NCBI GenBank assembly: GCA_015956445.1
Contig: WIUZ02000009.1
Coordinates: forward strand, 682,001 to 746,000
Reading direction: 5' to 3'
DNA: 64,000 bases
Source of the DNA: Thelephora terrestris
Taxonomy: Eukaryota; Basidiomycota; Agaricomycetes; Thelephorales; Thelephoraceae
The stretch's first letter is position 1, and each line of letters starts with the position of its first letter. The translations under genes and the position numbers were made by a program. The notes below the pieces were generated by a model. The model searched no databases. It saw only the letters and a list, made by a program, of their open reading frames with translations, and was not told the origin of the DNA. Shown here in pieces: positions 4,145 to 30,800 of this stretch.

Positions 4145-4292
4145 GGTAAGTGCACTCCTCGAGTGTCGGAAAGGGGTAGGTGGTGCAGAGGGGTCGTCTA
4201 GCAATAACGAGGGTCGTTGGGGTCGGCGAAAGTAGGTCGTCTAGGTCGTTTGACTCGATGAGCAAGAGAGTTACAACGCCGGGCTCATAACC

Positions 4293-5914: not shown

Positions 5915-7596
5915 CTACACATCGTCTTCCTGATCGCAATCCACTGCATTGACCCACCGACCCAACTCCCCCGCCATCCCCGCAGGAAATAACGTCCACA
6001 AGCGGACTTTAACGCACCTGAAGGGTATTCCCAGTGAATGCTGCAACTTTGCGAGTTCCACAATAGCCTCCAGGCATTCCGTCTCATCGATGTCGATCAA
6101 TGGGTATAAGATCACGAGCGTCTCGATATGCGGGAATACGATGGGTTTCGAGTTGCGAAGCCTCGGACAGTCCAGGAAGGCGTCGATGAACATATGTAAA
6201 TCGCAGCCACTGATTGTTAACTTGTCCAAGGGCCCCAATAAGGAAAACAATATCGGAAGCTGTTCCGCCGCACGTAGCATCTCGTCGGCATCTGACATGG
6301 CGGCTCTATTTTCGATGTGGAGTTGTTTGACGTGGGACAGTAGGGGGTGGTACTGGATGGTCTTGAGGGCTTGAGCGAAAATCATCCACCTCATCTCTGC
6401 ACGAGGCATGTGTAACTCGGCCTCGTCTAGACCCAAGCTGGGAACTTCGAAGTTCAAATCAACGACGGTCGCGTCGGAGGAGCGGAAGGTGAGATGACAG
6501 TAGATGTCCTTGTCCTCGCAGTAATTCATCTCGAGGTTGACTCTCTCGATTGGGCTCGCCGTATACTGGTGGAGGATTGTATTCCACAAAACAGGGGTGG
6601 TGAATACCTCCAGGTCTGCACTCACGTAGTATTCATACGTATGGTGCGTCAGTGACGTGTACTTGGCGAAAGGGCATGATATGCGAGCTGCAACGTCGTA
6701 GATGCGTGTCCCAAGGCTATCGGCTACGCGCAGTGAGAAGGTCTTGACATTGGGAAGGACGACAATCGTTTCCTGCGCAACGCTCATCAGCTCGACTGTG
6801 ACAGGGATCTCCACATCGACCGTTTGTAACGTGGGTGATGCTTTCAGAAAGTCGAGTAGGTATGAAGCAGTAAGCTCGTGTTCCGGGCCTGACGATAGTT
6901 CGAACGTGGTGAGGTTCGGAAAGAGGAAACAGCTCAGTAAGGAAAGCCTCCCCGAACGGATAACAAATTCTTCCAGATCGATGGAACTTCTGAAGATGGG
7001 AGGTGAGGGAGCGGTCACGATGTCTAGTTCGTTTCGTAGATGGTAGAGATTGGGATCAATGATCTTGAGGGTGCGGAGGAGCGGGAGTTGCCCCGAGTTG
7101 GCTCCAGAAAACATGACGACGTCCTGCCAGCTGTTTTCGATGAATTCAAGGTGTTTGATTTGCTGAACGTGAGGAAGAATCAGTGTTGTAGTGCCAAGAG
7201 GAGCATCGTGGTGGGTGATGATGTCTAGCAAGGACCCTTTTGCGCGTCCGAGGAGGGTTGACGCGTACTCCTCGCCCTTTATGAGGAACAGCTGTGACCA
7301 TAGCGTGCCACGATTGAGAAGGACTCCACGCCAACGACGAGAAACGGAAGCGGCATGGAAACGGTCCGCCTGGGAGGAGAGGTTGGTGGCGATGAGGGAA
7401 AGGATATCCGCCGGGATGCGGTTGAAGCGAACGAAAGAGTTCCTCCACTCGCGAATAGTTGCCAACGCGATTGAAGCATCTCGGTCGAGTTGGGAGGCCG
7501 CGTCCAAAGTGGAGCTGCAGGGGTAATCAGGATATTGACCTCCGATGTGATTTTTCAACATACATCGGTGAATATGCAACGCGCTTCAGCTCTTCG

Positions 7597-7844
7597 TGTT
7601 GGAAAACGCAGATCCCGTGCCAAAGGCCCGGCTATGAGCCGTGAGGATCGGCCCGACTCTTTGAGGTTGTATGTGGCGCTTTGATATGTTTCACTGTCTT
7701 TCATCTTGCATCCAGTTCTCTTTGTCACTTTCACTTCTTTGATATATGTAGCTTACGCGTACACCACCCAACTGTATATAAAGCTAGCTATTTATCTCGA
7801 ATGAACTATCTGTTTTTACCCATCTTATCTTGCGCACGCCGTTA
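7597..7844 (+). repeat. 5' LTR of Copia copy B
   Basis: The LTR starts TGTTGG and ends CCGTTA. A TATATAAAG box at 7775-7783 is the likely core promoter. The sequence is identical to 12449-12696. Confidence 0.95.
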
Positions 7845-7860
7845 GGTTATGAGCCCGGCG
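7845..7860 (+). promoter_or_regulatory. Primer-binding site, initiator-tRNA anticodon-arm type
   Basis: The sequence ggttatgagcccggcg directly follows the LTR. Its complement, cgccgggctcataacc, reads like the anticodon stem and CAU loop of eukaryotic initiator tRNA-Met. It does not resemble a tRNA 3' end. This is the arrangement known for Drosophila copia and Ty5, where a half-tRNA cut in the anticodon loop primes reverse transcription. The same site is present in copy A. Confidence 0.75.
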
Positions 7861-7992
7861 TTGTAACTCTCTTGCTCATCGAGTCAAACGACCTAGACGA
7901 CCTACTTTCGCCGACCCCAACGACCCTCGTTATTGCTAGACGACCCCTCTGCACCACCTACCCCTTTCCGACACTCGAGGAGTGCACTTACC

Positions 7993-10900
7993 ATGTCAGA
8001 CTCGAATTCTAACTTTTCTATCCTCTCCACTGTCCCCAAACTTGACCCCGACGGCACCAACTGGCATCTGTTCAAGATCCTGTTCGCGAATTTCATGGAT
8101 GGCCATGTCCTTGAACGACTTTACAAACCCGAGAACTACCCTGCTGAGACGTACGAAGACGTCGAACCGAAGCCATCCAAGAAGGATGGAGAAGACGAGA
8201 GTGACCTCCAGAAGCGTATGGACGTTTGGGAGGAAGGAGAGAGCCGGTGGAAGGAAGAAATGAAGTCCTGCAGAAAGGACAACGCGAAAGCGATAGCTGC
8301 TTTAGCAAAGGTACTCCCCACCTCTGTCTACATCGACATATCAAAGGATAAGCACTTCTGCGGCATGTGGAAAGCCCTCGAAACGAGATTCGAGGCACTC
8401 ACCGAGCACCAAAAGTCAAATCTGAAGGGTCGCCTCTACCAGATGGTCTGCAACGAGAAGGACAACGTCATCGCCCACCTCGAAGATATGGAATCCATCT
8501 ACCAGCAACTTGCCAGCCGCAGCATCCTCATTCCCGACGAGGATTACGTCGACGCGATCATCCGCTCCCTACCTCAGTCGTACTCCAACATAATATCGTC
8601 GACGGTCAACATAAATCGAAAAATGAAGCTACCTACCTTGCCAGCCGAGATTAAGGACATCGCTCGCAAAGAATACGAGGCCCGACAAAGCATGCAGCCC
8701 CGAGGAGGAAGAGCTCGATCGAACGAGATCGCCTTGCACGCCGACGCGAGAGGACGCGGGAGAGGCCGAGGACGAGGACGAGGAGGTCCCAGAGGAAGAG
8801 GAAACTCCAGAGGAGGAGGCGGAGGAGGCGGAGGAGGAGACCGAGGAACCGGCGACAGAGACCAGTCAAGATTCACCTGTTTCAACTGCGGAGGCAAAGG
8901 GCACAAGGCCACCGATTGCCCGAGCCCCAGGAAGCCCCGAGGAGAGAAGCGAGACGAGAGGAACGGAAATGGGGAAAGGAGAGAGCGGGAAACCGCTGCG
9001 ATAGCGGAGGACGAATTTGAGGAAGCCTGGATGGCTATGGCCCAAGGTACCAGCGTGTTTGCTGACGAAGTGGCATTGGAGCCAGAAACCCCCTCCTATC
9101 CTGAAGAGATCCCTGTTCCCACCGAAACGACCTTAGAACAGGCCCTCGCGATGCCATCGAATGGACGACGGACAAGCAACTCACCTTCCACGGAAATCTA
9201 CGACTCCGGGTGTACTCGACATATGACACCTGATCGACACCGCCTAATCAATTATCGGTCAATCGCACCGAAATCTATTGGCGCCGCAAATCAAGAGTCG
9301 TTCTCAGCGATTGGTGAAGGAGATATGATTGTCTACGCACCGAACGGCTCAACGCCCACGAAAATCCGTCTCCGCAACGTCCTCTACGCCCCGAACATGG
9401 GCTGCACCCTCATCTCCATCAGCCAAATTGATCAGGCCGGCTATTCCGTGGCCTTCCAGGATGGAAAGTGCGTCATCCGGAACCCAAAAAGCCAAGTTGT
9501 CGCCCAGATCCCGAGATCCCGTGGACTCTATCGAGTTGAAGAAAACCCCCTTTACGCCCTGAGTGCTGAGACACTCACCCTCGATGAACTTCACCGACGC
9601 CATGGGCACGTTGCCCACTCGACTCTAAAGAAGATGGTCAGCGAAGGTCTTATCGCTGGAATCAGGCTGAAAGAAGAACCTCCTACCCCCTGCAAACCCT
9701 GCCTACTTGCGAAAGCGAAGAGGAAGCCGATCCCGAGTTCCCGCACCGGGAAGCGATCCGAGAAGCTCGGAGAGCTCATCTATAGTGACGTCTGGGGACC
9801 TGCCACTACGCGAACCGTTGGGCACGCCGAGTACTACGTCATCTTCGTTGACGACGCGAAGCGTTGGATCTCGATTGATCTGATGCGTAAGAAGTCAGAA
9901 GTCCTCGCCAACTACCAGAATTACGAAGCGTGGCTGAGGACCCAGTTCGGTGTGGACATCAAAACCTTTCAGTCCGACAAGGGAGGAGAATATACTTCCA
10001 GTGACTTTCTGCAACACACCAAGTCGAAAGGAACGGTTCATCGCTTCTCGGTCCACGACGTTCACAGCCAGAACGGTGTCCCAGAGCGAGCACACTACAC
10101 CCTGCTCGATGGCGTTCGAGCCCTTCTATCCGCAAGCGGACTACCGGCATCGCTCTGGGGAGAAGCGCTTAAGCACACGGTCTGGATCCGAAACCGATCG
10201 CCCGCAAAAGCCCTCGATGGAATGACGCCTTATGAGGCTCTGTATGGAGAAAAGCCGAGCTTGAAGGGAACGAGAGAGTGGGGGAGCCTCTGCTGGGTGA
10301 CGAAGAAGACGTCCAAGATCCGCGAACGCGCCGAGGAAGGCCGATGGATTGGTTTCGACGACTCGAGCAAAGGGCACAGGATCTACTGGCCCACCAGGAG
10401 AACCATTTCTGTGGAATACGACGTCAATTTTATGCCCGCTCCTGACCCGCCGCTGCTCGAGGGGGAGATAGAGAATACCGATTTCGATTTTGATGATTTC
10501 GACGACCCTCAAGAACCTTCTAAAGTCACCGCCAAACCCGTCGAAGTCCATCAAGAACCTGTCGATCAGAGCGATCAGGAAGCTGTCAAGACGTCAAACC
10601 TTGACGAACGTCAAACCTCGAACGACGAACCTGCCGAGCAATCTAAGTCCCTCGAGGAGCCTGTTCCTAATCCCGAACCTGCCGGAAATCCTCCAGCCGT
10701 AAAGGCACCCGCAAGACGACCCTGGTATCAAGCTTACCACGATCAGTCCAACGTTCTCGAGTCCCGACTCCGATCCAGAGACAAGACAAGCACCCCTTCT
10801 AAAGATCAAGAACCTCAGGGGGAGTCCGGACAAGAGGAACTCGCAATGGTCGCTGCGATCTCCTTCCACGAAGGAATGGAACCCAGGACTATTCAGGAAG

Positions 10901-12441
10901 TCTACGGAAGGCCGGATAGATCGCAATGGGAGGAGGCGATGAAGGAGGAGCTCGAGAAGCTGATTAGGAGGAATACTTGGAAAATCATTCCAAAACCCGA
11001 AGGAGCCAATATCGTCGGATCCAAGTGGGTTTTCCGACTCAAGAAGGATGCCAATGGGAACGTCACATCTCACCGAGCGAGACTGGTTGCCCAAGGATTC
11101 ACGCAAGTCCACGGAGTCGACTTCGATGACACCTTTGCCCCGATCGCGCGGATGGTCTCGATCCGGACGGTTCTAGCACTCGCGGCTAGATTAGATTGGG
11201 AGATCCATCAAGTGGATGTCAAGTCTGCCTACCTTTACGGCGAACTCAACGACGATGAAGTCATCTACATGAAACCCCCTCCTGGCGAGATCAAGATCTG
11301 CAAAGACGGCTACGTCCTTCGACTCCTGAAGGCGCTCTACGGACTCAAACAGAGTGGACGCCGATGGTACCAAGTCCTCCGGAAAGTCCTTGGAGATATC
11401 GGTCTAACCCGATCTGAACACGACCACGCAGTGTTTTTCCGCCGCGAAAACGGAACCCTCACCACCATCCTACTTGCCCACGTCGACGACTTCACCATCA
11501 CCGCTGCGGATTCTGCCCTCATCAAAGCGACGAAAGACGGACTTCGAAAACACCTCGAGATCCATGATATGGGTGAGATTCACTGGATGCTCGGACTCGA
11601 GATCAAGAGGAATCGTGAACTCCGCACCATCTCCCTATCCCAACGCTCCTACATCGATTCTATCATTACTCGCTACGGTTTCGAAGACGCCAAGCCTTTA
11701 TCCATCCCCATCGTCGCCAACTCCACCTTATCTCGAAACGACTGTCCAACGACCACCGCTGACATCGGCAAGATGGCCGGACGCCCTTATCGAGAAGCCG
11801 TCGGATCTCTGATGTATGCCGCTGTCGGAACCCGTCCCGACATTTCCTTCGCTGTTGGACAAGTCGCGCGTTTCTCAGACAACCCCGGACAACCACACTG
11901 GGAGGCCGTAAAACGAATCTTCTGTTATCTCAAAGGAACACGTGACCATTGGCTCGTCTACGGAGAGCAAGGCCCTTCGATCTCTGGCTATACCGACGCT
12001 GACGGAATGTCCAACGAGGACCGACACGCCATCTCTGGATTCGCCTTCCTTATTGATGGAGGCGCCGTGTCCTGGAGCTCGAAACGCCAATCGCTTGTCA
12101 CCCTCTCGACCGCCGAAGCTGAATACGTTGCCGCCACCCACGCCGCCAAGGAAGCCATCTGGCTCAGAGAATTTATCTCTGAAGTCTACCAACCCCAAGG
12201 CCCGATGCCTCTCCATTCCGATTCCCAATCCGCCATCGCTCTGGCTCGCAATGAGCAATTTCACGCACGCACGAAACACATCGACATCAGATTTCACTTT
12301 ATCCGTTATGTAATAGAAGCCGGCAAGATTGTTATCGACTACTGCCCTACCGAAGATATGGTCGCCGATACCCTCACGAAAGCTCTGCCAAGCGCCAAGG
12401 CCAAACACTTCGCGTCGGCCCTAGGCCTTCGGAAGGTTTGA
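7993..12441 (+). CDS. Copia Gag-Pol polyprotein (1482 aa)
   Basis: I chose the ATG at 7993 (acc-ATG context, MSDSNSNFS), although the frame is open 20 codons further upstream. Residues 1-235 are UBN2-type Gag. A basic Arg/Gly stretch leads to the zinc knuckle C296-X2-C-X4-H-X4-C309. The protease DSG starts at D404. A GAG-pre-integrase HH-CC zinc-binding part follows near 9590-9710. The integrase catalytic residues D599, D662 and E698 have the D-35-E spacing of the family. Reverse transcriptase includes VDVKSAYLYGEL and the active-site HVDD at 1163-1166. RNase H begins with the TDAD at about 1335 and ends near the stop. All catalytic residues expected for an active element are present. The purine tract and 3' LTR follow at once. 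Confidence 0.95.
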   Translation: MSDSNSNFSILSTVPKLDPDGTNWHLFKILFANFMDGHVLERLYKPENYPAETYEDVEPKPSKKDGEDESDLQKRMDVWEEGESRWKEEMKSCRKDNAKAIAALAKVLPTSVYIDISKDKHFCGMWKALETRFEALTEHQKSNLKGRLYQMVCNEKDNVIAHLEDMESIYQQLASRSILIPDEDYVDAIIRSLPQSYSNIISSTVNINRKMKLPTLPAEIKDIARKEYEARQSMQPRGGRARSNEIALHADARGRGRGRGRGRGGPRGRGNSRGGGGGGGGGDRGTGDRDQSRFTCFNCGGKGHKATDCPSPRKPRGEKRDERNGNGERRERETAAIAEDEFEEAWMAMAQGTSVFADEVALEPETPSYPEEIPVPTETTLEQALAMPSNGRRTSNSPSTEIYDSGCTRHMTPDRHRLINYRSIAPKSIGAANQESFSAIGEGDMIVYAPNGSTPTKIRLRNVLYAPNMGCTLISISQIDQAGYSVAFQDGKCVIRNPKSQVVAQIPRSRGLYRVEENPLYALSAETLTLDELHRRHGHVAHSTLKKMVSEGLIAGIRLKEEPPTPCKPCLLAKAKRKPIPSSRTGKRSEKLGELIYSDVWGPATTRTVGHAEYYVIFVDDAKRWISIDLMRKKSEVLANYQNYEAWLRTQFGVDIKTFQSDKGGEYTSSDFLQHTKSKGTVHRFSVHDVHSQNGVPERAHYTLLDGVRALLSASGLPASLWGEALKHTVWIRNRSPAKALDGMTPYEALYGEKPSLKGTREWGSLCWVTKKTSKIRERAEEGRWIGFDDSSKGHRIYWPTRRTISVEYDVNFMPAPDPPLLEGEIENTDFDFDDFDDPQEPSKVTAKPVEVHQEPVDQSDQEAVKTSNLDERQTSNDEPAEQSKSLEEPVPNPEPAGNPPAVKAPARRPWYQAYHDQSNVLESRLRSRDKTSTPSKDQEPQGESGQEELAMVAAISFHEGMEPRTIQEVYGRPDRSQWEEAMKEELEKLIRRNTWKIIPKPEGANIVGSKWVFRLKKDANGNVTSHRARLVAQGFTQVHGVDFDDTFAPIARMVSIRTVLALAARLDWEIHQVDVKSAYLYGELNDDEVIYMKPPPGEIKICKDGYVLRLLKALYGLKQSGRRWYQVLRKVLGDIGLTRSEHDHAVFFRRENGTLTTILLAHVDDFTITAADSALIKATKDGLRKHLEIHDMGEIHWMLGLEIKRNRELRTISLSQRSYIDSIITRYGFEDAKPLSIPIVANSTLSRNDCPTTTADIGKMAGRPYREAVGSLMYAAVGTRPDISFAVGQVARFSDNPGQPHWEAVKRIFCYLKGTRDHWLVYGEQGPSISGYTDADGMSNEDRHAISGFAFLIDGGAVSWSSKRQSLVTLSTAEAEYVAATHAAKEAIWLREFISEVYQPQGPMPLHSDSQSAIALARNEQFHARTKHIDIRFHFIRYVIEAGKIVIDYCPTEDMVADTLTKALPSAKAKHFASALGLRKV

Positions 12442-12448
12442 GGGGGAG
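12441..12448 (+). promoter_or_regulatory. Polypurine tract of Copia copy B
   Basis: The purine run AGGGGGAG abuts the first base of the 3' LTR. It is where plus-strand DNA synthesis would be primed. It overlaps the stop codon of Gag-Pol by one base. Confidence 0.8.
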
Positions 12449-12696
12449 TGTTGGAAAACGCAGATCCCGTGCCAAAGGCCCGGCTATGAGCCGTGAGGAT
12501 CGGCCCGACTCTTTGAGGTTGTATGTGGCGCTTTGATATGTTTCACTGTCTTTCATCTTGCATCCAGTTCTCTTTGTCACTTTCACTTCTTTGATATATG
12601 TAGCTTACGCGTACACCACCCAACTGTATATAAAGCTAGCTATTTATCTCGAATGAACTATCTGTTTTTACCCATCTTATCTTGCGCACGCCGTTA
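12449..12696 (+). repeat. 3' LTR of Copia copy B
   Basis: This LTR is identical by eye to 7597-7844. Its TATATAA box at 12627 points rightward, towards the F-box-like gene whose ATG is at 13014, about 390 bp downstream. It is followed by the target duplication cttcg at 12697-12701. Confidence 0.95.
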
Positions 12697-15660: not shown

Positions 15661-17406
15661 CTACACATCGTCTTCCTCACCGCAATCCACTGCATTGACC
15701 CACCGACCCAACTCCCCTGCCATCCCTGCAGGAAATAACGTCCACAAGCGAATTTTAACACACCCAAAGGGTATCCCCAGTGAATGCTGCAACTTTGCGA
15801 GTTCCACAATAGCCTCCAGGCATTCCGTCTCATCGATTTCGATCAATGGGTATAAGATCACGAGCGTCTCGATATGCGGGAATACGATGGGTTTCGAGTT
15901 GCGAAGCCTCGGACAGTCCATGAAGGCGTCGATGAACATATGTAAATCGCAGCCACTGATGGTTAACTCGTCCAAGGGCCCTAATAAGGAAAACAGTATC
16001 GGAACCTGTTCCGCCGCACATAGCATCTCGTCGGCACCCCACAGGGCGGCTCTATTTTCAATGTGGAGTCGTTTGACGTGGGACAGTAGGGGGCGATACT
16101 GGATGGTCTTGAGGGCTTGACCGAAAACCATCCACCACATCTCCGTACGAGTCATGTGTAAATCGGCCTCGTCTAGACGCGTGCTGGCAACTTCGAAGTC
16201 CAAATCAACGACGGTCGTGTCGGAGGAGCGGAAGGCGAGATAACAGTAGATGGCCTTGTCTTCGCTGTAATTCATCTCGAGTTTGACTCCCTCAATTGGG
16301 CTCGCCGTATACTGGTGAAGGATTGTGTTCCACAAAACAGGTGTGGTGAGTACCTCCATGCGTGGACTCATGTGGTATTCATACGTATCGTGCGTCAGCG
16401 ACGTGGACTTAGCGACAGGGCACGATATGCAAGCTGCAACGTCGTAGATGCGCTTCACATAGCTATCGGCTACGTGCAGTGAGAAGGTCTTGACATTAGG
16501 AAGGACGACAATTGTTTCCTGCGGAACGCTCCTCGGCTCGATTGCGATAAGGATCTTCACATCGACCGTTTGCAACGTGGGTGATCCTTTCAAAAAGTCG
16601 AGTAGGTGTGAAGCAGAACACCGGTTTTCTTGGCCTGACGAGATTTCGAACGTGGTGAGGTTCGGAAAGAGGAAACAGCTCAATGAGGAAAACCTCCCCG
16701 AACGGATAACAAATTCTTCCAGATCGACAGAACCTCTGAAGAGGGGAGGTGAGGCAGCGGTCACGATGTCTTGGGGAAATCGTGAGCGGTAGAGATCGGG
16801 ATCTATGATCTTGAGGGTGCGGAGGAGCGGGAGTTGCCCTGAGTTGGCTTCAGAGAACGTTACCACGTCCTGCCAGGGGTTTCCGATGAATTCGAGGTAC
16901 CTGATTTGCTGAGCGTGAGGAAGAATCAGGCTTGTAGTGCCAAGAGGTGCATCCTGGTGGGTGATGATGTCTAGCAAGGACCCTTTTGCGCGTCCGAGGA
17001 GGGTTGACGCGTACTCCTCGCCCTTTATGAGAAACAGCTGTGACCATAGCGTGCCACGATTGAGAAGGACTCCACGCCAACGACGAGAAACGGAAGCGGC
17101 ATGGAAACGGTCCGCCTGGGAGGAGAGGTTGGTGGCGATGAGGGAAAGGATATCCGCCGGGATGCGGTTGAAGCGAACGAAAGAGTTCCTCCACTCGCGA
17201 ATAGTTGCCAACGCGATTGAAGCATCCCGGTCGAGTTGGGAGACCGCGTCCAAAGTGGAGCTGCAGGGTGTAATCAGTATACTGTCCTTCGATGTCATTG
17301 TTTCAACATACATCGGTGAATATGCAACGCGCTTCAGCTCTTCATTGAGGGCGAAGATGAGCTGCGAGAGCGACAGGCCTCTTCCGGGGTAAGCATGTGT
17401 GTCCAT
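15661..17406 (-). CDS. F-box/LRR-like protein, intact member of the duplicated family (about 564 aa)
   Basis: The ATG is the complement of 17404-17406 and the N-terminus begins MDTHAYPGRGLSLSQLIFAL. A 51-nt intron at 17261-17311 (GTATGT to CTGCAG) is in frame and stop-free, so it also reads as coding. I infer it is spliced because the paralogues have introns with stops at the same position. After splicing, the REWRNSF segment and the F-box core NRIPADILSLIATNLSS lie at about residues 50-80, followed by SRRWRGVLLNRGTLW and a long region of imperfect leucine-rich repeats. The predicted role is substrate recognition in an SCF E3 complex. The gene is most similar to the copy split by Copia B, so this pair arose from a recent duplication that included the 3' flank. 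Confidence 0.8.
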   Translation of the reverse strand: MDTHAYPGRGLSLSQLIFALNEELKRVAYSPMYVETMTSKDSILITPCSSTLDAVSQLDRDASIALATIREWRNSFVRFNRIPADILSLIATNLSSQADRFHAASVSRRWRGVLLNRGTLWSQLFLIKGEEYASTLLGRAKGSLLDIITHQDAPLGTTSLILPHAQQIRYLEFIGNPWQDVVTFSEANSGQLPLLRTLKIIDPDLYRSRFPQDIVTAASPPLFRGSVDLEEFVIRSGRFSSLSCFLFPNLTTFEISSGQENRCSASHLLDFLKGSPTLQTVDVKILIAIEPRSVPQETIVVLPNVKTFSLHVADSYVKRIYDVAACISCPVAKSTSLTHDTYEYHMSPRMEVLTTPVLWNTILHQYTASPIEGVKLEMNYSEDKAIYCYLAFRSSDTTVVDLDFEVASTRLDEADLHMTRTEMWWMVFGQALKTIQYRPLLSHVKRLHIENRAALWGADEMLCAAEQVPILFSLLGPLDELTISGCDLHMFIDAFMDCPRLRNSKPIVFPHIETLVILYPLIEIDETECLEAIVELAKLQHSLGIPFGCVKIRLWTLFPAGMAGELGRWVNAVDCGEEDDV

Positions 17407-18160
17407 TGGAGAGACGTGAACTTTCCTCGGGATTTCCCGACGAGGCGCTTGGGGTCACTTTGAGATGCGCGCCTCCAGTTCTGTCTCCGCTGAATGATTC
17501 TGAGGATTCCACTAAAGAACGTCCTATCTATCAACCTAGCTTGGTATGGGTATGGGTTGCACGTGTGCGCCTCCGAGTCGAGCCTCCGGCCGGGGGGAAA
17601 CCCCGCTTTCGTCCCGAACATCCCGGCAGGACCCCTCATCCTGCTGTCGAGGTCACCACTTTGACTGTGATACACACAAATGGGGTGGGTTCTCAGCTGA
17701 AACGGACGAGGCCTTGGCTGCGCTTCTCATCTTTGTGTAGACGTTCGCTCGTCCAAGGTCTTCAGGCATGATTCGCTCTCCCGGACGAGGCCACCTTTTG
17801 TGGTGGTCGCCGTGAATGAAGGAACCAATACAGCTGGGGAACGAGCTTTGATTGTTACTAGCCTGTCCGGTTTTTGATTGGTATCTAGGCCAAAGCCCTA
17901 GGGGTGGAACCCCGCGCCGGGAATGCGTCGAATCTATTGCGACCCTGACTCCCGGCCACGCTATCCCAATCACGAGCGCTATCATCGAACCCCTGCACCC
18001 TTGATGCATGTTCGCGACGTTTAAATACCATGGCACATCGGCTACCCTTGGTTTTTTTTCTTCCCTTGGAGGCCCGGCCACTTCGCGCCTTTCAACCCAC
18101 TAGTCACATCCCCCCCAACTCCCTTGTCGATACCGTTTCCGCCTTTCCCTCTTCGGAATC
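17407..18160. other. Intergenic stretch
   Basis: I see no supported gene. The interval separates the F-box gene start from the RING gene start, so it probably carries both promoters. The pyrimidine-rich end near 18040-18160 (tttttttcttccc and following) would fit a fungal core promoter of the RING gene. Confidence 0.4.
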
Positions 18161-19306
18161 ATGCTCGTCATCAATCCTGAGTCGAGTTGTGACATTTGCC
18201 TCGAACATTTCTCTGTAGACGGGGACCAGAGAGCTCCCCATGCTCCCCGATGTGGGCACGTGTTTTGTTTGAGGTAAGATAACGCTGACCGCCCGATTGT
18301 TCTGATTCTCCCTCCTTGTATGGATCTCAATTTTTACCAGGTGTCTCAAGTCGTTGACTCGAAGGGTCTGCCCTATGTGCCGGACTCCATTCCAGCGCAG
18401 CGAAGTCACAAAGATCCACCTCGAACAACAAGCACGGTCTTCAGATTCCAGCACCAAACTCGCCCGCGAGTTACACAATCGCATAAATTCGTTCGTTCAG
18501 ACAGGAGCTAGCACTTCTGTCGCTCACTCTTTGGCCGAAGACTGCAAGAAATTCTTCCAGGAGAACTCTTCTACCGATGTGCGTATCAATTCCTTGGCAG
18601 AGGACTCGGGTGCTAACGGTGACATTAAGCATCATGATTCTTACGTCACGTACCAACTCCTCAAGCGAAGGTCACGGGCTCATATGCGGGATCGTATGAC
18701 CTCTAGATCTTCAACCGGCGATGCCGAACTCGGTGACGAGAACGAACGGAGGAGGTCCCGGGCTCGTCAAAACCCGCAAGGTAACGCTACCGACGATGAC
18801 CTTCGCGAGGCAATCGAGGAGAGTAGGAGAACTGCGGAGGACCGGGACCTCCAGGAAGCGCTTCGACTGAGCCGAGAGGAGGAGGAAAAACGCAAGGCAG
18901 CTCAAAACTCGATCGAGTCGGCCCCTTTCGATAACAACAATCGACTGTGCGTCGCAAAGCCTAACCTCTTTCTATTCCGCTTAGTGTCTTGGACAGACCT
19001 GTTCCCAACAACGGTTTCCCGCTGTTCGACGCGTCATCCCAACCTCAGTTCACCGGAATTCAACCTCAATTCACCGCCGTCCAACCACAATTTACTGCTT
19101 TCAACCCATGGCAACAACAAGCTGAGCAACAGGCCATGCAGGCCCAATGGGCTCAACAACAGAATGAGTGGTTGCGCCAACAACAAGAATTACAGGCACA
19201 ACAAGAGTTACGAGCACAACAGCAGGCTCAGTTCCAACTGGCTCAACAGCAAGAGGAATGGCTGCGCCAGCAAAACCAACAGCAACAGCACCGGCAGCTG
19301 CTCCTC

Positions 19307-19339
<33 letters not shown>

Positions 19340-19597
19340 ATGTTCTTACAACCCCAGGGGAACCCCTTGATCGCCCAGCCGACCGGGTTTGGGTCAAACA
19401 ATCCATTTGCACCCACTCAACCGGCTTCCTCCCCTTCCCCTACCTCTTTCTCTCCACCACCACAGAATTTGATCCCCACATTCAATCTACCTGGGACATT
19501 CAAAAACAGGTACAGCACCGCCTTGACTACTGGAACAAATCCCTTCTCGAAGCCACAGCAGCCACAGAACCCCAAACAACCTTTCTTCTCTATATGA
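18161..19597 (+). CDS. RING-finger protein with epsin-like UIM/NPF tail (about 443 aa), probable gene fusion
   Basis: Three exons, 18161-18273, 18341-18946 and 18985-19597, join in frame through GTAAGA...CAG and GTGCGT...TTAG introns. Residues 10-51 form a C3HC4 RING: C10, C13, C31, H33, C36, C39, C48, C51, with the first intron inside it. RINGs of this kind recruit E2 enzymes for ubiquitin transfer. From about residue 145 the text changes. It has a MRDRM segment, two consecutive UIM-like helices (DDDLREAIEESRR at about 188-202 and DLQEALRLSREEEEKR just after), a long Gln-rich stretch, NPW near 275, and NPF motifs near 380 and 424. That order matches the tail of fungal epsins, which bind ubiquitinated cargo and EH-domain endocytic proteins. 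The ENTH membrane-binding domain of epsin is absent. I infer a RING to epsin-tail fusion, but a long-standing family with this architecture is also possible. Confidence 0.72.
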
Positions 19598-19916
19598 CAG
19601 CCGTATCTCGCGGAGGGGCCATCTAGTATGTGTTGTGTTGTTGAATGTGGTATGAAAAACGGATCGGATTGACCATTTTACGCTCGACAGTTCCTAATAC
19701 CTCCTTCCCGTCCCTTTATGTACTTAGCATTTTATCAACTAGCCTTAACCCGCAAGTCGGGCGCTCAGATGCTCTGATCGTACCAGACGACGTCCACCAC
19801 GTCCCGGGCGCCTGTGTCGCGACTTCGAACGATCTCTGGAGTACCTATGGCTTCGCTGATGCCTGCCACCCTCCCCGAGACCAACCATATACCGCTCGAG
19901 GTTTTGTACCGTCGAT

Positions 19917-20835
19917 ATGGATATTTCTCAATCGATATCGGTCCCGCCGCTACCCAATCTAACCATCATTCCCCTCTCGGCGCAATCCTCGTATCGCACC
20001 GTTGGTTTGGAACCAGAAGATTCCGGAGAAGATTTAACCTCAATCCCCGAGACATTTCTAGCACTCTCTCCGGACAGATTCCCAACGACCACTACGACCT
20101 CAGCAAAACCCCACCGCCCGAAAAGACGTTCCAACAGAGCTGCAAACAGTCGATCCGCAACACCGTGGTCTTCTCGGAATTCCCCGAACTTTCTGAAGAC
20201 GTGCTATTCACATTCACTAGCACTGACAGCAACTCCCGGATGCTGGTGGTCCACGATCCTTTGACCATCCTTGAGATTGCACGAGCTGGGACCGCACTGA
20301 AGCTCGAGGCCCAATTGAATTACCTCTTGCTCAGCGGGTCTCGGTTCACGCTCTTATACCCAAGGACCTGGCCTTTGGTCCCACCGAGCTCCAACATTCC
20401 CGCAATTCCCTTTCGAGACGCAGCCTGGGAGCAGAACCAAGAAGACTTCCGGGCCTACATCTCGAGGGTCAAGAGGTTGTTCCCTCGTTGGGAGGTACTA
20501 CAAGATACCGACCGGTTGGTGAATTCTCTTCTCACGAACCGTACTTCGCCCATCCCACCACAGGCAAGGGCGACCAGAAGAGGGACATGTCGTGGTGGCC
20601 CAAGGTTTCGATCTGGGAAGCAAGTAACCTCAATGTTGGGTGTTGGACCCCGCTCTGTGAACGGTGGTTCCAGAAACGTCTTCAGGGTATTAAGGACGGC
20701 ACGGCCCGACCTCATCCTGCCCCGGTTTGGAGTAAAAACCTGAGGTACGAGAAACACTCAAAGGACTTCTTCAGGAACTGGAAGAACATCGGACGGGGCT
20801 ACCTGATAAATGAGTGTTCAATTGAAAAGATGTAA
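19917..20835 (+). pseudogene. Conserved agaricomycete protein of unknown function, frameshifted
   Basis: I recognise the style of a widespread unnamed mushroom family but cannot name a function. The N-terminus MDISQSISVPPLPNL is in one frame. Near 20175 (tcttctcg then gaattcc) the reading continues one frame over with EFPELSEDVLFTF and HDPLTILEI, and then LNYLLLSGSRFTL. A 59-nt intron at 20519-20577 (GTGAAT to CCAG) leads to the C-terminal signature MSWWPKVSIWEASNLNVG and a basic end, stop 20833-20835. The frameshift could be a real one-base loss or a sequence error. If real, the gene is broken. A frame starting upstream at 19814 covers the middle part but not the expected N-terminus. Confidence 0.55.
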
Positions 20836-21253
20836 CCTTTCTCGTAGTCTCTGGGACACCGCTGACTCGCCCATGTGCTTCTCTCGTTTCGTTGAAATCT
20901 GTGACATCTCAACCCCATCCATTTCAAACAAACTTTTGGTCTACATTGTTCGCATTGCCTTGCCGTTTGACCTAGCCACAGCGTCCTGCGTTCCTCGCCA
21001 ACCGATGAAGCTCCCACCATCCGACAACTGACTTCATCGTAGGCATATTGCCGCATTGTATGATCACATCTCAACTCGAGCTCGACTGCTGGGGTAAGGA
21101 GGTGGAGTACCACGACTTAGAACTGTTGTGCTTGTGTATTGCGAAGGTTTTTGTAAGGATTGATACACCAAATAAAAACGGCTTAGACGATACACACCAC
21201 CCGGGTGCACCGCATAAGGTCGTGCCAGCCAAAGGGAACCACGGCTCCAGATC
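20836..21253. other. Convergent intergenic stretch
   Basis: This 418-bp gap lies between two genes that converge. No gene or repeat is visible. It should hold both polyadenylation regions. Confidence 0.4.
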
Positions 21254-22869
21254 TCAATGTGCTCCGGCCCGCGGTTTCCTCCTGTTCAGCAAGGGAGCAA
21301 GCTTCCCCTCCATCTGGCAACGCCATACGAATTCCTTGATGAATGGTTCGTAGTCGAACGTCCGCTTGATATTCTCCGTCTAACAACCATCGTGAACGAT
21401 AACGCCAAGGGCCGTCAGAAGGCACTTACATTTGCCAACCGAGGCTTTTCGAGCTCGTCTTCGACCGTGGTCTTGACCGAAAGCGCGTTTTCGATACACC
21501 GATTCCATGCGCTGAGCAGCTCCTCCGGCGACATGTTCATGATCTGGAGGTCTCTCGCCATCCTCTGCGCGCCAAAGTCTGGTGCGAAAACCGGAGGGGT
21601 GGGGTTCTGAAACGAAGCTGAGGTCGCGAAAACCTCCTTTGAACTGTTCAGCAACGTAGAGTCGATCTGGTGTCAAATATTACGCATTAACAGTGTTTCC
21701 CGACGGAGGTAAACGAGAAATAACCAGCCTTATCTCCCCACCCACCCGGGTAAGCACTGTTGAGCCGGGTCTCCAGCTTGTCTCGTTCCCTCTTGAGGAG
21801 CTCAAGTTGATCAGATGCCCTGCAAAACTGGTCCTCGACAATCGCGAGCAGGTTGAATCTGATGCTCCCGGTCTCTTCGTCACCCCCACCATATTTGCGC
21901 ATCTTCATCCTCAACACGGGGCGGACAATGTCCATCCAACTTGAGTGAACAGTCGAACCAGATCCTGAAGGTGAAGGGGACGAATGCAACTCCCCAACCT
22001 CGACAGGTCCGGACTTCAACCCGTCCAATTCCCAGACCTTACCTCGGAATGGTATGTAACCGATGAAGTGGTAGGCCTCTTCTTGGTTCGCATCGGTTGC
22101 TTCGGGGTTCATGGGTTTCTTCCTTTTGGCCGCGAGCTTTCGCCGTTTTGCAGGAGGAGCGTTCATTGAGCGTTCAGCTTTCGCGGCATCCTCCAGCGTT
22201 TTGATCGCCAGTACGTTCGTTGCTCCCCGTATATCAGCGGGTCTGTGATAGATTTAGGACATTAGACAGACAGGGACTGGGGTGCGGTGTTGGCGTACCG
22301 AGCAAGGTCGTTATGCGCTTGTCTGATGAAATGGGCATTTGAAACAGCCAGACCCTTCATCTACAGCTGAGAGATTTAGGTAGGCCGTTAGCGAAGGAAT
22401 GAGCGCACGGACGTACGGGGGACGACATCCTTTCCGTCTCGTTCCTGAACACCCTTAACCTCTCCCCGATGTCGACCTCTTCGACGTTCAGAAGGACGTT
22501 CAGGATCGCCATCGATGCACAAGCGTCGTCGCTCAACTGATTCGCGAACCACAGCTTGGCCGAATCATCTTCTCCGTCCTCCAGACCGCATGATTCCTTC
22601 TTCGGCAGCCCATCGCTATCTTTCTTCCACAAGAAACAAAAGACTAAGCCGTGGATCGGATGGAGGTGGTCGGATGCCCATGGTTCTATGTCGTAGAGTT
22701 CGACAACTTGGAGACTCTGCACGCCGAGACTACGGACGAGAGTGGTGAACACGCCGGGGTCAGATTCGATGACGGCGAACGGCCCGCCGATGAGATCGTG
22801 TTCGTCCCTGTCGTTAGAAGTGGCGTTGGGACCCGCAAGGTTGGGAGGGGCGTCGACAGTCGCGTCCAT
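21254..22869 (-). CDS. Ubiquitin carboxyl-terminal hydrolase, UCHL5/UCH37 type (about 466 aa)
   Basis: Five exons read on the minus strand: 22869-22417, 22360-22299, 22242-21705, 21666-21430 and 21364-21254. Exon 1 holds the UCH start (LIGGPFAVIESDPGVFTTL) and the oxyanion glutamine and nucleophile in NQLSDDACAS (Q111, C117). Exon 3 holds the catalytic His in EAYHFIGYIPFRGKVWELDG (about H230) and the Asp 15 residues later (about D245). Exons 4 and 5 hold the C-terminal ULD-like helix (RTFDYEPFIKEF), which in UCHL5 binds the proteasome receptor Rpn13 or the INO80 complex. That extension separates UCHL5 from short UCHs. The enzyme removes ubiquitin from proteasome-bound substrates. The third intron (21667-21704, 38 nt, GTCGGG donor) is unusually short, so that junction is the least certain part. 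Confidence 0.85.
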
Positions 22870-23073
22870 GGCAAAACACGCGTCGCACTGTGATCATTGA
22901 GGATCATCGACAGTGATGGTGAGTCGATCGCCTTCCAGACATAGGTGCCGGAAAGATAGGGAAAACGATCCTGGTTCGGATTGGGTACTGTACAAAACTA
23001 CAACAACAAGCAAGAGCATCGAGGAGAAACCCGTCATATGGTACTGTACATATATGGACCTTCTTCGGACCTT

Positions 23074-24837
23074 CTACATATCATCTTCTTCCACGTACTC
23101 CTCCTCACGGCAATCCACTGTACCAACCCACCGCTTCAACTCCTCCTCTATCTGTACAGGAAGCCACCCCATGCGGACCGTCAACCGTTCAAAGGGAATC
23201 GCCAGCGCATGCTGTAACTTCGCGAGTCCCATGACGGCACTCACGCATTCCACCTCATTATCTTCCATCGGCGGGTGCAAAATCGTGAGCTCCTTGGTGT
23301 GCAGGAACACGATCGGCTTCTCCAAGTCGTTAAGCCATGGACCGTCAAAGAAGTGGGGAAGGAAAACGCATAGATCGCAGCCGCTGATGGTCAACCCGTC
23401 CAAGGGCCCCAATGAACTGAAAAGTTTTCGAATCGTTTGCGCGGTACGCATCTCGTAGTAGGTGTTCGGTACAGCGGCTTCGAATTCAATGCGGAGTCGT
23501 TTGACGTGGGATAGTAGGGGATGATTCTGGATGGTTGTGAGCGCTTGACAGAGAACCTCCCAGCCCATTTCGACGCGGGGCATGGTCAACTCGTCCGCGG
23601 TCGCATCCGTTTCGATAATGTTTAAACCCAGTCTATAGATAGTTGCGTCGGGGGACTGGAAGGTGAGGAAACTTTCGAGGTCATCCATTGAAGATCGTTT
23701 GATCTCGAGCGTGACTTCTTCGATTGGACTTGCCATGGACCGGGGAACAATAGTACTCCAAAAAGCAGGGGTGGGGAATAGCACCAGGCCGTTATTCATG
23801 TCGTCCTCGAACATCTGGTACGTGAGCAGCGTGGACCTCGCGCGAGGACACGATATGTGGGCCGCAATATTGTATACCTGTGCTGCGGGGTCATTGGTTA
23901 CGCGCAGGGAGAAGGTCTCGGCATTTGGAAGGACGACAACCATTTCCTCGGGGACATTCCACGGCGTGAGAGGCGCAGATATCTTCACATCGACGGTTTG
24001 CAACATTGGCGAAGCTTCCAGAAAGTCGAGTAGGTATGAGGCACTATACTCCACTGCCAGCGGCTCTGACGATAGTTCAAACGTGGTGATGTTCGGGAAG
24101 ACAAAATGGCCCAACAAGGAAGGTCTGTCGTGGCAATGGAAGACAAATGCTTCCAGGTCGACAGAACTCTTGAAGAAGGTAGACGAAGGAGGGGTCACAA
24201 CGCCGGGTTGACCGTGCGATCTGGCGATCAGGGGGGAAATGATTTGGAGGGTGCGGAGGGAGAGATCGAATTCAGAAAACGTTATAATGTCCTGCCAGGG
24301 GCAGTATTTGAGCTTGAGATTCCTGATTTGCTGAGCGCGAGGGGAAATCAGTGCAATCGTGCTGCTGGGAATATCGCGATAGGAAATGATATCCAACGCG
24401 GATCCTTTCGCCCGTTCGAGGAGGGTTGATACATACTCCTCGCCCTTTCCAAGGAATAACTGTGACCATAACGCGCCGTGCTTGAGGAAGACCCTGCGCC
24501 AATGACGGCACACCGACGCGACACGGAAATGGACCTTCTGGCAAGGCAGGTGGGTGGGGATGAGGGAAAGGATATCGATCGGGATGCGGTTGACCGGAAT
24601 GAAAGAGTTCCTCCACTCGCGAATTGTTGCCAACGCATGCGAGGCGCCTTGGTCGAGTTGAGAGACCTCCTCCAAAGTCGAGCTGCAGAGGCAATCAGCG
24701 TGTCGCTCTTCGATGGATCTAAAATGGCCTTTTGCAACGTACAGTGGAGAATACGCCACGCGCTTCAACTCTTCGTTGAGAGCGAAGATGAGCTGCGAAA
24801 GAGATAGGCCCCTTCCGGGGTAAGTATGAGCGTTCAT
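23074..24837 (-). CDS. F-box/LRR-like protein, intact divergent member of the duplicated family (about 567 aa)
   Basis: The ATG is the complement of 24835-24837 (MNAHTYPGRGLSLSQLIFAL). A 60-nt intron at 24683-24742 (GTACGT to CTGCAG) is in frame and stop-free but aligns with introns of its paralogues. The F-box core NRIPIDILSLIPTHLPC follows REWRNSF, then RVASVCRHWRRVFLKHGALW and a long leucine-rich region. It is clearly more diverged from the pair at 5915-12763 and 15661-17406 than they are from each other. The C-terminus ends in an acidic EEEYVEEDDM. Its start is head-to-head with the F-box pseudogene at 25085. Confidence 0.8.
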   Translation of the reverse strand: MNAHTYPGRGLSLSQLIFALNEELKRVAYSPLYVAKGHFRSIEERHADCLCSSTLEEVSQLDQGASHALATIREWRNSFIPVNRIPIDILSLIPTHLPCQKVHFRVASVCRHWRRVFLKHGALWSQLFLGKGEEYVSTLLERAKGSALDIISYRDIPSSTIALISPRAQQIRNLKLKYCPWQDIITFSEFDLSLRTLQIISPLIARSHGQPGVVTPPSSTFFKSSVDLEAFVFHCHDRPSLLGHFVFPNITTFELSSEPLAVEYSASYLLDFLEASPMLQTVDVKISAPLTPWNVPEEMVVVLPNAETFSLRVTNDPAAQVYNIAAHISCPRARSTLLTYQMFEDDMNNGLVLFPTPAFWSTIVPRSMASPIEEVTLEIKRSSMDDLESFLTFQSPDATIYRLGLNIIETDATADELTMPRVEMGWEVLCQALTTIQNHPLLSHVKRLRIEFEAAVPNTYYEMRTAQTIRKLFSSLGPLDGLTISGCDLCVFLPHFFDGPWLNDLEKPIVFLHTKELTILHPPMEDNEVECVSAVMGLAKLQHALAIPFERLTVRMGWLPVQIEEELKRWVGTVDCREEEYVEEDDM

Positions 24838-25084
24838 TGGAGAGATGGAGAGCGTGCAAGATCAAGGTGGCCCTTGTACATGAGACTTGTAAGCTGGCCG
24901 TGAAAGAACCGGGCCATTCGGGAAACTCCACCAGGGTGGCTCCTTTACTGTAGTGTGACACCCATTCAGCACAGCCACCTCCGCCGGCACTCACGGGTGC
25001 CTGCGCGCTCGATCAATTTCTTACTCTCCCTGTGAGCTTCAACGACCAGAATCGACTGCATTTTCAACACCCCCCATCCTCTCG
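24838..25084. promoter_or_regulatory. Shared upstream region of two divergent F-box family members
   Basis: These 247 bp separate the ATG of the gene at 23074-24837 from the ATG of the pseudogene at 25085. The bases just upstream of the former resemble those upstream of the broken F-box gene at 4541-4823. I see no clear TATA box. Confidence 0.35.
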
Positions 25085-26633: not shown

Positions 26634-27755
26634 TGTCACAGATGTGACCACTGGTCACCCAAAGGAACAAGACAGAATGCCATGGAACATGATGGAATGT
26701 TATGGAATAATGTGGAGTGCGTTGGAATGTTCTGGGACATTCTCCTGTAAATTAGTATATATAGACCTCAACCACACTTCTAAGGGACAATCAGTTCACC
26801 CCACAAGGACAGCAGCTCACCCACTACTCAGGGAGAATCACCAACAGCTCAGTCTTCACCTAGACTGAGGCTCTCTTTGCTAGTTTTCCCCCACAACTTT
26901 TCATCTACCCCCTACCCCTTAGGACTGATTGGTTGAGTGATTTTGAGTAATCACATACCACTTCCAGCCTCATCCTCTGTGTGAAGAAGCACTAAGTCAG
27001 AAGTACTGATCAAGCCTAGCACACTTGTGACGTTGGAGTTTTTGGTGTCTGTATTGCTGAAGTCTGATACTTTAGGCAGATAGCCCTCCACTTCAGAAGA
27101 GTGTTTGTCTAGGTAACAGCCAGATTTAGCAGGTACCACAAAGGTCTCCGACATATTCTACGACATATCATTTTATCCCAAGTTTATTTGAAGTTATATT
27201 TGTTTGACGCACTAGACGTCATCTGTAGCAAGTTTAAGGTATCTGACATACCTCTATAAGCTCTACGACATATCTTGTCACTTTTACGACATATCAAGCA
27301 CAGCCTCAGGTGTAAGCGTACACCTTCCTTATTTGGTTTAGCTTCACGACACAGCCTCGACACAGCTTTAGGTACAGCCTAAGGACAGGACTATTACACA
27401 GCATCAAGCACAGCCTCAAGGCCCATCCTTGAGTCAGGAACCCCATTCCTATCAGAACATAGATTCCCACGGTGAAGTTAGGTGTCTAATCAGAGTGTAC
27501 AGAGCCCCTGAGTGATAACATTACTGATTCCCTAGAATAATTACTGAGGGACACACTACTAGTAGATCCCCAGCGAACTCATCAGGACCAAGAGCCGGAA
27601 AGAGGAACCCCGCTCTACCCTGTGGAGTTGTTAGTCGAGTTCATTGACTAATCAACCAGCCTGCTTGGTTTCTATACTCTAGTCTCTAAGCAAACCAAAG
27701 GGTGTTAGTTATCTTCTGTATAGGAAATAACACTACACTCCCCACGAACCCGACA
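26634..27755 (+). repeat. Probable LTR of a Gypsy-type element, with adjoining primer site
   Basis: The right boundary is fairly clear: the LTR-like end ...CCCGACA at 27755 is followed by actggagcccacggcgaggg, a tRNA-like primer site. The left boundary is a guess from the matching start TGTC at 26634, and it may be further left because the text style does not change there. A TATATATAG box lies near 26756. There is no second copy in the window, so the LTR cannot be confirmed by repetition. It lies 106 bp upstream of the gag-protease ORF. Confidence 0.45.
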
Positions 27756-27861
27756 ACTGGAGCCCACGGCGAGGGATTCCAGTAAACAAACCCACATCAC
27801 CCAGGACATCTCATTCACCATTAGACCCTCTTCTACCCTTAATCCCCACCCCACTCACAGT

Positions 27862-30800
27862 ATGACTCGTCTATCAGAGTCAGAAAACGAACACTCCCCC
27901 ATCTTCAGGAATGAAGATCGACACTACTCTGGTTCCTATTTGGAACTGCCCTCCCCCAACAGATCAAGAGCACCCCGAACCTTTGATGGGGAGCCCCACA
28001 GCCTGGAACCTTTCCTGGAGACATATGAGCACCTCTGTGAGCGTTACAGAGTGACCTCATCCAGAGAAAAGTACCAAGGGCTTATTAGATATTGCAGTGA
28101 TAAGGTAGCTCGGAAGCTCCGGAGTTTGCCTTCCCATGCTGAGAGAGATTACCACGATCTCTTGAAGGATTTGGAGTACTACTTTGGAGTCAAAGAAGTA
28201 TGTCTGAACATGGGAAAAATCGATGGATTCACAGCCAAATGGAGACAACGCAAGATGCGTACCTTGGATGAGTTTAAGAAATATCAGCTAGAATTCTGGA
28301 AGCTGGTTGGCCTAGCCAAAGAAAGGAAGAGGATCTCCAACCGAGAGGTTCGCAGATATTTCTGGGAAGGACTGAATTCCTCGTTCAGAAGACAGGCAGA
28401 ATCTCATATGAGGATGGTGAACCCTGAGTTGGATGTTACCATCCCATTTGAAATATCTGACATAGAGAAGGCGGCTAACTCAGTCCTCAACCCCAACAGG
28501 TTTGACCAGCATCTCACTACAAGGACTAGGTACGATTCCTCGGACTCTGAATCTGACTCAGATGAGGATGATGATGAGAAGGAGAAGAAGCACGGATACA
28601 GTTCTGGAGATGAGTCAGACCATGACGTAAAACCCCTTACACAACGGAAGTCACCCATCACCCCACCCAAGACACCTCCCAGGACCAAGAAGGGCAAAGG
28701 GAAAGATGACAAGGAACTTAACAAGCTAGTTGAGAGCATGAGTGGGCTGAAACTCAACGAACCAGACTACCTAGTAAAGTACGTCAATCTTGTCAGGAAC
28801 TACCCAGAGCTCAAAGGCATAATAGAGGCCCCAGTTCAACAAGGCCCAAGCAGATCCTCTTGGCAAGGTGGAACATTCCAGAGAGACCCTCCTCCCCATC
28901 AGAGATTCAACAACCCTCCCCGTCAACAGTTCAATTCCCCTTCCCAACAACGAACCAACCCCAATCCTCAGCAACCAAGTAAACCCCCTCAGAAGAGTTT
29001 TGCTCTGGGAACAGGAGCCAGTGCAATTGGGATTAGTATTACCTGCTATGGTTGTGGACAGCCAGGGCACCATATCAGGTATTGTGAGGAAGTGAACAAG
29101 CTAATCCAGCAAGGGAAAGTTGTGAGAGAACCAAACAGTGGAAGACTCCAACGACCTGACGGCTCACGAATAATCCGGGCTCAAGAAGAAACTTGGGTGC
29201 AGGCAATCCAGCGTGAGGTAGCAGAAGTTCATTTCACACGAATTGGGACATATGAACATGATGAAGACGACGCAGCATGTAATTACATGGAAGTAGAATA
29301 CGAGGAAGAAGACGCTGGGACAGATGCACAAGAGGAACTAGGATGGGCCTCTGGGCAGGTAGGAAATTACCAAGCTTATAGTGCAATAAGGACAGAACAG
29401 GTCAGCAAAGCTCATAGGAAAAACATAGCCCAGGGAAACTTACCTAGCAGTGCCCAAGGGGTGAAGAAACTCCCCAGGGGTGGCAAAGCAAATGGTCTGG
29501 GTAGGAAAGAAGCCCCCATCAAGGTAAGCGTCAATCCTAATGGCCACCAAGGAAGGAACCCCAAAGGAATGGGAACCATGAACATCAACAAGGGCATAGC
29601 TGAGGAGACAGCTGACATACAGGCGGTGCCAATGGACGTCGACAAGACAATCCCCATAAAACCCATAAAGAGCACGAGGAAGGAGCCTACGCATCAACCT
29701 AAACCCAACATCATCAAAGTCGCTAATACTGGGCCTGTGGGAAGAGACAGTTCAGAAATAACCAAGGAAATTCTGAGCACCCCAGTTACCCTAACAGTAC
29801 AGGAGATTGTGAGTAATGCGCCTTCCTTGCGACGAAACCTAGTGAGCGCCATGAGACCACAGCGTGAGGCTTTGGCCCCAGCTCAGGACAAAACAGGTTT
29901 TGTTGGGATTTACGAGGACGATCACTCAGACCCATCTGATGCAGAAATGTCAGAGGAAGAAGAGGGAGAGGAGGAGGAAGAAGAAGCTTACCTCAGTGAA
30001 CAGGTAAAAGAACCCCAGATAACGACGGAGAAGGGAGACTTGTTGAAAGTACCGGTGAGGATAGGAAAAGCACGGATGACTGGAATATTTGACAGTGGAT
30101 CCCAGCTCAACGTCATCAGTCAGAACTTGGCAGAAAAGGCAGGAATACCTTGGTTAGACGCTGAACCGCACCAAATTCAATTATTGTCAGTTGATGGTAA
30201 CCTAACCAGATGTGCAGGAATGGTGCCAATGGCTGAAATAACGATTGAAACTGATGATGGACCAATCTTAACCAGGGGAAACTTGTATGTCAATCCTCGA
30301 GTCGGATTTCAGCTACTCTTGGGAAGACCCTGGGGACGTAGGAATCGGGCTCATCTCATTGAAGACAATGAGGGAACAAGAATAGCATTCCGGACCAAGA
30401 ACGGGTGGCACAACATAACCCCTATCTCTAACCTAAAAAGGCAAGGGACCAATACACCACAGACAGAACGGAAGCAAAGTCCGGCCGAAGTCTATGCCAT
30501 TAGGGAAGCACAGGAAGTACCAGAAACGGATGAAGAAGAAGAGGATGACGACATAGGAAGCAACGTAGCTCATATTGGAGCCCAGGGCCTAGAAGATAGA
30601 GGGAGAGATTTTCCCTACTCACCTGTGGCAATTGGAGAAATGGATCCACCGGAACCAGGACAGAGACGAGAGGTAGAAGAGTCTGACAAGGAAGAAGAAC
30701 AAGGAATGGACGAGTATGAAGTTGGAGCAGCAGAAGAAGAAGAAGCCCAGGGACAGGAACACCCAGGAAATCAGGCAGAGTTAAATACTCAAATTGAGGA

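Follow-up and report, generated by a model that had tools for sequence, protein, structure and literature searches.

The gene described here is almost certainly a recent chimeric gene, in which the front of a gene coding for a RING finger protein has been joined to the back of an epsin gene, as judged from its likeness at the DNA level to two genes of the same genome. It lies in a stretch of 64,000 nucleotides (C60:682001-746000; hereafter the window) of a genome of 40.6 Mb in 60 contigs, which was searched for its relatives. The explanation that best accommodates the observations as a whole combines three elements: the chimeric origin, the repair of a break as the route to it, and a function as a ubiquitin ligase (E3) that would be recruited to sites of endocytosis. 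We give this combination a probability of roughly 0.5.

The gene is encoded on the + strand, from an ATG at 18161 to a stop codon that ends at 19597, and its three exons specify a protein of 443 residues (Table 1); the three-exon model and coordinates of a preliminary description of this DNA were thus confirmed to the base. The N-terminal part of the protein carries a C3HC4 RING at residues 10-51. This is the one match to the RING pattern in the chimera, has a full set of zinc ligands (C10, C13, C31, H33, C36, C39, C48 and C51) and is recognized by the Pfam zf-RING_5 model (E 7.6e-9; 35.9 bits vs a cut-off of 27.9), in agreement with the complete RING first proposed at these residues. Two UIM-like motifs are found further along, both matching a pattern of the form D/E..hydrophobic-x-x-A-hydrophobic-x-x-S, which was chosen after the protein was seen; when the 47-residue stretch was shuffled 200,000 times, this post hoc pattern was matched at least once with P 0.0055, and twice with P 5e-6. 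The Pfam UIM model matches neither the chimera nor the epsin parent; hence, the UIM assignment, which had been made in the preliminary description, stands on the motif and on homology to the epsin parent. A search of solved structures with the UIM stretch recovered one match (E 8.8) to a VWFA-domain protein, which we take to be proteasomal Rpn10, a UIM protein. The Gln-rich linker and NPF motifs noticed earlier are likewise present, the latter at residues 379 and 425 with an NPW at 280, and two or more NPFs occur in a shuffled protein with P 0.0043. The chimeric protein contains no DPW or DPF. Pfam searches at E up to 10 gave no ENTH match in the chimera, and for the C2HC and C2H2 fingers only one C2H2 match, of 7.2 bits, whose residues (46-56) overlap with the RING.

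When the head and the tail of the protein were searched separately against the genome, each led to a single close relative. The tail gave seven matches: two are the chimera itself, three belong to one gene on contig C4 (79-89% per stretch) and the remaining two are weak (E 0.18 and 5.7). The head gave nine: two are the chimera itself, two belong to one gene on contig C34 (90 and 92%) and the other five are weaker (24-47%). The best non-self matches are an epsin gene and a RING gene, the outcome anticipated earlier for a fusion. The epsin parent on C4 has an open frame (512 residues by gene model) with an ENTH domain at 21-144 (E 7.9e-53) and is the normal epsin that had been expected elsewhere in the genome; the RING parent on C34 also has an open frame, of 474 residues by gene model. 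A second ENTH gene is present on C5. Pattern scans of bacterial/archaeal and viral contigs returned 42 and 13 pattern matches, respectively, with no confirmed relative among them, as expected.

The likeness to both parents extends well beyond the coding sequence. By blastn, the RING-derived segment and the C34 locus are identical in 1152 of 1264 columns, with 56 gap columns, and differ by substitution at 56 of 1208 aligned sites, making it a copy of about 95%; the epsin-derived segment aligns with the C4 locus in two pieces, with 806 of 875 and 219 of 232 positions identical (a copy of about 96%), and takes in the intron of 38 bp as well as some 140 bp of 3' flank. Thus, the interval 18161-19597 given in the preliminary description holds as the coding part but not as the full captured unit, which spans 17451-19736. 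The parent switches between 18664 and 18666, inside exon 2 and with the frame kept; this bears out the idea of a RING fused to an epsin tail devoid of the ENTH domain, and places the switch inside the interval 18600-18700 in which a transcript end had been considered earlier.

With its RING parent the chimera has in common the 5' flank, start codon, RING, intron 1 and linker, whereas it is without 14 linker residues and everything past parental residue 159. With its epsin parent it has in common both UIM-like motifs, the Gln-rich linker, the NPFs, one intron and the 3' flank; in contrast to that epsin, it has a RING and linker instead of the ENTH domain, and nine residues fewer between the UIMs. 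It further lacks 232 bp that in the epsin parent lie between two copies of ACAGG: 177 of these are coding, and with the deletion 59 codons and the final intron of that parent (55 bp) have gone, while the frame is intact. Both introns of the chimera are at the parental positions and of the parental lengths. An intron of 38 bp is short, and this length is the same in the two epsin copies despite differences at 6 of the 38 sites. The gene thus displays two features of a chimera made from DNA, namely distinct parents that are still present and the retention of parental introns and flanks. Since introns and flanks of both parents have been kept, the sources were DNA rather than mRNA, and retroposition is ruled out.

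Table 1. Positions, in the window, of the chimeric gene, its copied segments, its joints and the adjoining DNA
Feature	Position	Strand	Details
F-box-like open frame, left flank of the insertion	15664-17454	-	stop to stop; Pfam PF12937, E 1.8e-7
Left junction filler	17447-17450	.	4 bp with no counterpart in the flank or the RING parent
Copy of RING parent	17451-18664	+	C34; 710 bp of 5' flank, exon 1, intron 1, start of exon 2
Exon 1	18161-18273	+	protein start and first five of the eight RING zinc ligands
Intron 1	18274-18340	+	67 bp, GTAAGA..CAG; inherited from RING parent
Exon 2	18341-18946	+	last three zinc ligands, linker, fusion point, epsin residues with two UIM-like motifs
Fusion point	18665	+	one extra G, from neither parent; completes codon 146 (Lys, 18663-18665)
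Copy of epsin parent	18666-19736	+	C4; from just past ENTH through 3' flank
UIM-like motif 1	18792-18824	+	residues 189-199
UIM-like motif 2	18840-18872	+	residues 205-215
Intron 2	18947-18984	+	38 bp, GTGCGT..TAG, CTAAC box; inherited from epsin parent
Exon 3	18985-19597	+	Gln-rich linker; NPF motifs at 19400-19408 and 19538-19546
ACAGG at the deletion site	19506-19510	+	5-bp repeat where the two blastn pieces overlap
Right junction filler	19737-19748	.	12 bp
Right flank	19749-24876	.	collinear with inverted paralogous C60 segment lacking the chimera

The two halves have diverged from their parents to a like extent, with a dS of 0.110 for the RING half and 0.105 for the epsin half, which fits the prediction from one event. 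The alignment of 441 codons contains 29 synonymous differences and 30 replacements, pooled over the chimera and parent lineages as no outgroup was used; this pooling makes any test of constraint on the chimera a weak one. For the halves together dN/dS is 0.277 (bootstrap 0.158-0.495), and of 400 resamples 2.25% reach or exceed 0.5. Considered separately, the halves do not fall clearly below this value: the RING half is at 0.302 (0.104-0.873) and the epsin half at 0.265 (0.123-0.588). In the RING half there are 11 replacements, none of which falls on a zinc ligand: H22D and H23Q lie within residues 10-52 and nine in the other 102 residues. In the epsin half, the key residues of the two UIMs (L192, A195, S199; L208, A211, S215) and both NPFs are unchanged, and K194E falls within the first UIM.

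These figures bear on the foremost alternative to a functional gene: a real chimera without lasting function, that is, a young duplicate drifting to loss, with its frame open by chance or owing to its short life. We regard this as a serious possibility, though we lean against it. It would accord with several observations: the 5' flank, with 31 substitutions in 704 sites (0.044), is as diverged as the coding parts; 30 replacements exceed the 16-25 expected if both lineages were equally constrained (0.25-0.3); neither half alone has a dN/dS clearly under 0.5; 59 codons of the epsin tail are gone; and one copy was found, in one genome. The first two count directly against constraint. Against drift, few of the bootstraps of the pooled dN/dS reach 0.5, as given above, and the outcome of a neutral simulation is also adverse to it. 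In this simulation the chimera evolved neutrally and the parents at a constraint of 0.05, 0.2 or 0.3, with three transition fractions (nine settings of 2000 runs each); a replacement share as low as that observed together with the absence of a stop was obtained with P 0.0005-0.0185 across the nine settings. The components of this joint value differ in weight. The replacement share alone has P 0.005-0.334 and is at or below 0.05 in three of the nine settings, fitting neutrality in the other six, while the absent stop alone has P 0.05-0.064; as the replacement share mostly fails to reject neutrality, the joint value leans on the absent stop. There is indeed no premature stop in the frame of the chimera. 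A similar indication comes from indels: those in the coding part are of 42, 27, 3 and 3 bp, in addition to the 232-bp deletion, and all keep the frame, while those in the 5' flank are of 1, 2, 3, 1, 1 and 6 bp. From 8 indels in 945 non-coding bp, about 5.6 would be expected in the coding lineage of the chimera, in which no frame-breaking one is seen. In our reading, constraint on the chimera would be relaxed and not absent, which is short of proof of function.

If the gene does function, its parts suggest how. The RING would bind E2~ubiquitin, the UIMs would bind ubiquitin on cargo or adaptors, and the NPFs would bind scaffolds with EH domains, at least four matches to genes for which are present in the genome. 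As the ENTH domain is absent, the chimera would not be tethered to the membrane by itself, and the E3 would instead be recruited to endocytic sites. Once there it would ubiquitinate itself, the scaffolds or nearby cargo, and its expression would follow the pattern of the RING parent. Among solved structures, the RINGs of RNF4 come closest in sequence (E 2.6e-12 to a chain of 133 residues that has two RINGs, and 2.1e-6 to a single RING), and the C-x-I-C and CP-x-C-R positions are common to both; in RNF4 these positions contact E2~Ub. RNF4 binds SUMO chains through SIMs, whereas the second part of the chimera would bind ubiquitin and EH domains. The absence of the long C-terminal part of the RING parent counts against an E3 function. 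Weighing these points, we hold the chances that the chimera is a working E3 to be not quite even. The fuller reading, offered more tentatively still, is that of a selected, working endocytic RING E3 with its own ubiquitin-reading and EH-docking tail, which a single event of break repair may have made out of two unlinked genes, and which may be driven from the promoter of the RING parent.

Epsins read ubiquitin and are also ubiquitylated themselves, and the yeast epsin, when ubiquitylated at its membrane-binding domain, leaves the membrane (PMC6723200; PMC9400068). In the RING-UIM E3s, according to a review, the UIM binds ubiquitin and aids its transfer (PMC12522283). A second alternative takes the tail as the active part. 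Here the RING would be idle, and an epsin tail without an ENTH domain would act as a competitor of the true epsin in binding to EH scaffolds and to ubiquitinated cargo, thereby dampening endocytosis. The intact UIM key residues and NPFs, together with the loss of the membrane-binding ENTH domain, are what such a competitor should possess; however, the zinc ligands of the RING and the positions common to RNF4 are unchanged as well, and hence nothing marks the RING as dead. We therefore consider a mere competitor unlikely.

The site in which the chimera resides can be compared with a version of itself that has no insert. At a distance of about 76 kb on the same contig there is a paralogous segment in inverted orientation, which matches the left flank at 87% and the right flank at 92 and 94%; in it, 177 bp (C60:777957-778133) stand in for positions 17447-19752 of the window, the two segments being otherwise collinear. 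These 177 bp have their sole other genome match on C11, where about 60 bp of them recur together with the adjoining right flank at 71%. Going by the C11 copy, the right flank begins at about 19749; at this point the C11 copy also carries 22 bp that are absent from the paralogue. It reaches across the right boundary of the arrangement without insert, which suggests that this arrangement predates the insertion. A search with the left-flank DNA gave at least 44 matches including itself, 27 of them on C60, with the others at 67-92% identity. Judged from these copies, the chimera landed in a fast-duplicating F-box region.

The surroundings merit description in their own right. F-box-like open frames are found in the window at 5918-7585, 15664-17454 and 23077-24861, and the family is expanded on C60. 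In the right flank there is a match to Peptidase_C12, a ubiquitin C-terminal hydrolase domain (22360-22893; E 6.4e-28), and the region 20463-24876 that holds it is duplicated at 94% on C60; this gene, the F-box genes and the RING chimera make up a small cluster of ubiquitin-system genes. Several mobile elements are also present. A Copia element at 7596-12696 consists of 249-bp repeats around a frame open for 1514 residues; it has split a copy of an F-box gene on the 5' side of that gene, the F-box sequence resuming at 12697. Its ends are identical in 249 of 249 bases, which points to a young insertion, probably a very young one. A second Copia frame (2-4540, - strand) has Pfam scores almost equal to those of the first and shares its end repeat, which here lies at about 4293-4540 (248 of 248 bases). 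An open frame of 1851 codons at 27724-33276, with a weak aspartyl-protease match just below the cut-off, is possibly a retroelement polyprotein. Matches to a tnp2-type transposase (44579-45568) and to the reverse transcriptase model RVT_1 (62598-63998) complete the set.

With regard to the route of formation, a DNA copy of the front of the RING gene with its 5' flank was joined end to end with a DNA copy of the back of the epsin gene with its 3' flank, within a segment of the F-box-gene cluster and in place of roughly 180 bp present in the insert-free paralogue. The likeliest event is a double-strand break into which two ectopic DNA fragments were built during repair by end joining. Filler is found at all three joints (4, 1 and 12 bp), and the edges of the insert have no repeat in common beyond a direct or inverted word of 6 bp, which is also the commonest value in 500 random pairs; filler, loss of target DNA and the lack of terminal repeats together argue for end joining at a break.

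The competing route, an improbable one, would be a transposon of the Helitron or Pack type that captured the two fragments and joined them. Elements of the Copia, tnp2 and RVT_1 kinds are at hand in the window, and Helitrons of Pleurotus with captured genes of unknown origin have been described, together with the end rules of these elements (TC...CTRR and a 3' hairpin), in PMC4289320. A CTAG at 19739-19742, in the right filler, fits CTRR. However, the left edge is not TC, and the 42 bases up to the CTAG form a stem of no more than 4 bp (-0.5 kcal/mol); as epsin-derived DNA reaches 19736, any hairpin before the CTAG would in any case be parental. The insert edges are also devoid of a target-site duplication or terminal repeat, the 6-bp words being at the level of chance. 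A Helitron or an inverted-repeat element at these edges is hence rejected on the end features. That the joints are an artefact of assembly or of chimeric reads is highly improbable: the segments differ from both parents by about 4-5% substitutions and by private indels, and so were not made by joining present loci, which rules out an assembly chimera; filler bases at each joint speak in the same direction.

Among the known systems closest to the chimera are the RING-UIM E3s RNF114, RNF125, RNF138 and RNF166, in which a C3HC4 RING likewise stands at the N-terminus and a UIM closer to the C-terminus (PMC12522283). In contrast to the chimera, in which no such fingers were found and which ends in an epsin tail with NPFs, these are defined by a C2HC and two C2H2 fingers in between (PMC12522283). 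By its predicted domains the chimera is thus neither an epsin, as it has no ENTH domain, nor an E3 of the RNF114 kind, as it has no such fingers. That it belongs to an old RING-UIM family unrelated to epsin, as the existence of these E3s might suggest (PMC12522283), can be dismissed, since the parental copies refute it in this genome: its tail is a DNA copy of the resident epsin, the head and tail searches of the genome gave no other joined RING-UIM/epsin-tail gene, and in place of the ancestral family weighed in the preliminary description there is one close relative per half, on different contigs, although the counts of large families in these genome searches are lower bounds.

Chimeric genes as such are already known. 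The maize p2/p1 gene is likewise a novel gene generated via end joining with filler DNA (PMC2686159); it merged neighbouring paralogues, whereas here the parents are unrelated genes on other contigs and the joining took place at a third site. In animals as well, domains are reported to be gained chiefly through the joining of adjacent genes (PMC2926785). Direct searches of the literature, with a coverage that leaves out most subscription journals, gave no paper whose title or opening abstract lines describe a RING-epsin fusion.

Because both parents are still present, the birth of this chimera can be read base by base. Both parents, a joint defined to the base, fillers, an insert-free paralogous site and halves of like age are rarely readable together. 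In one step, the chimera has swapped a membrane anchor for a ubiquitin-transfer module. If the proposed function is true, it would write ubiquitin where an epsin normally only reads it, and the fusion of a reader and a writer of ubiquitin in one endocytic protein becomes an idea that may be tested directly.
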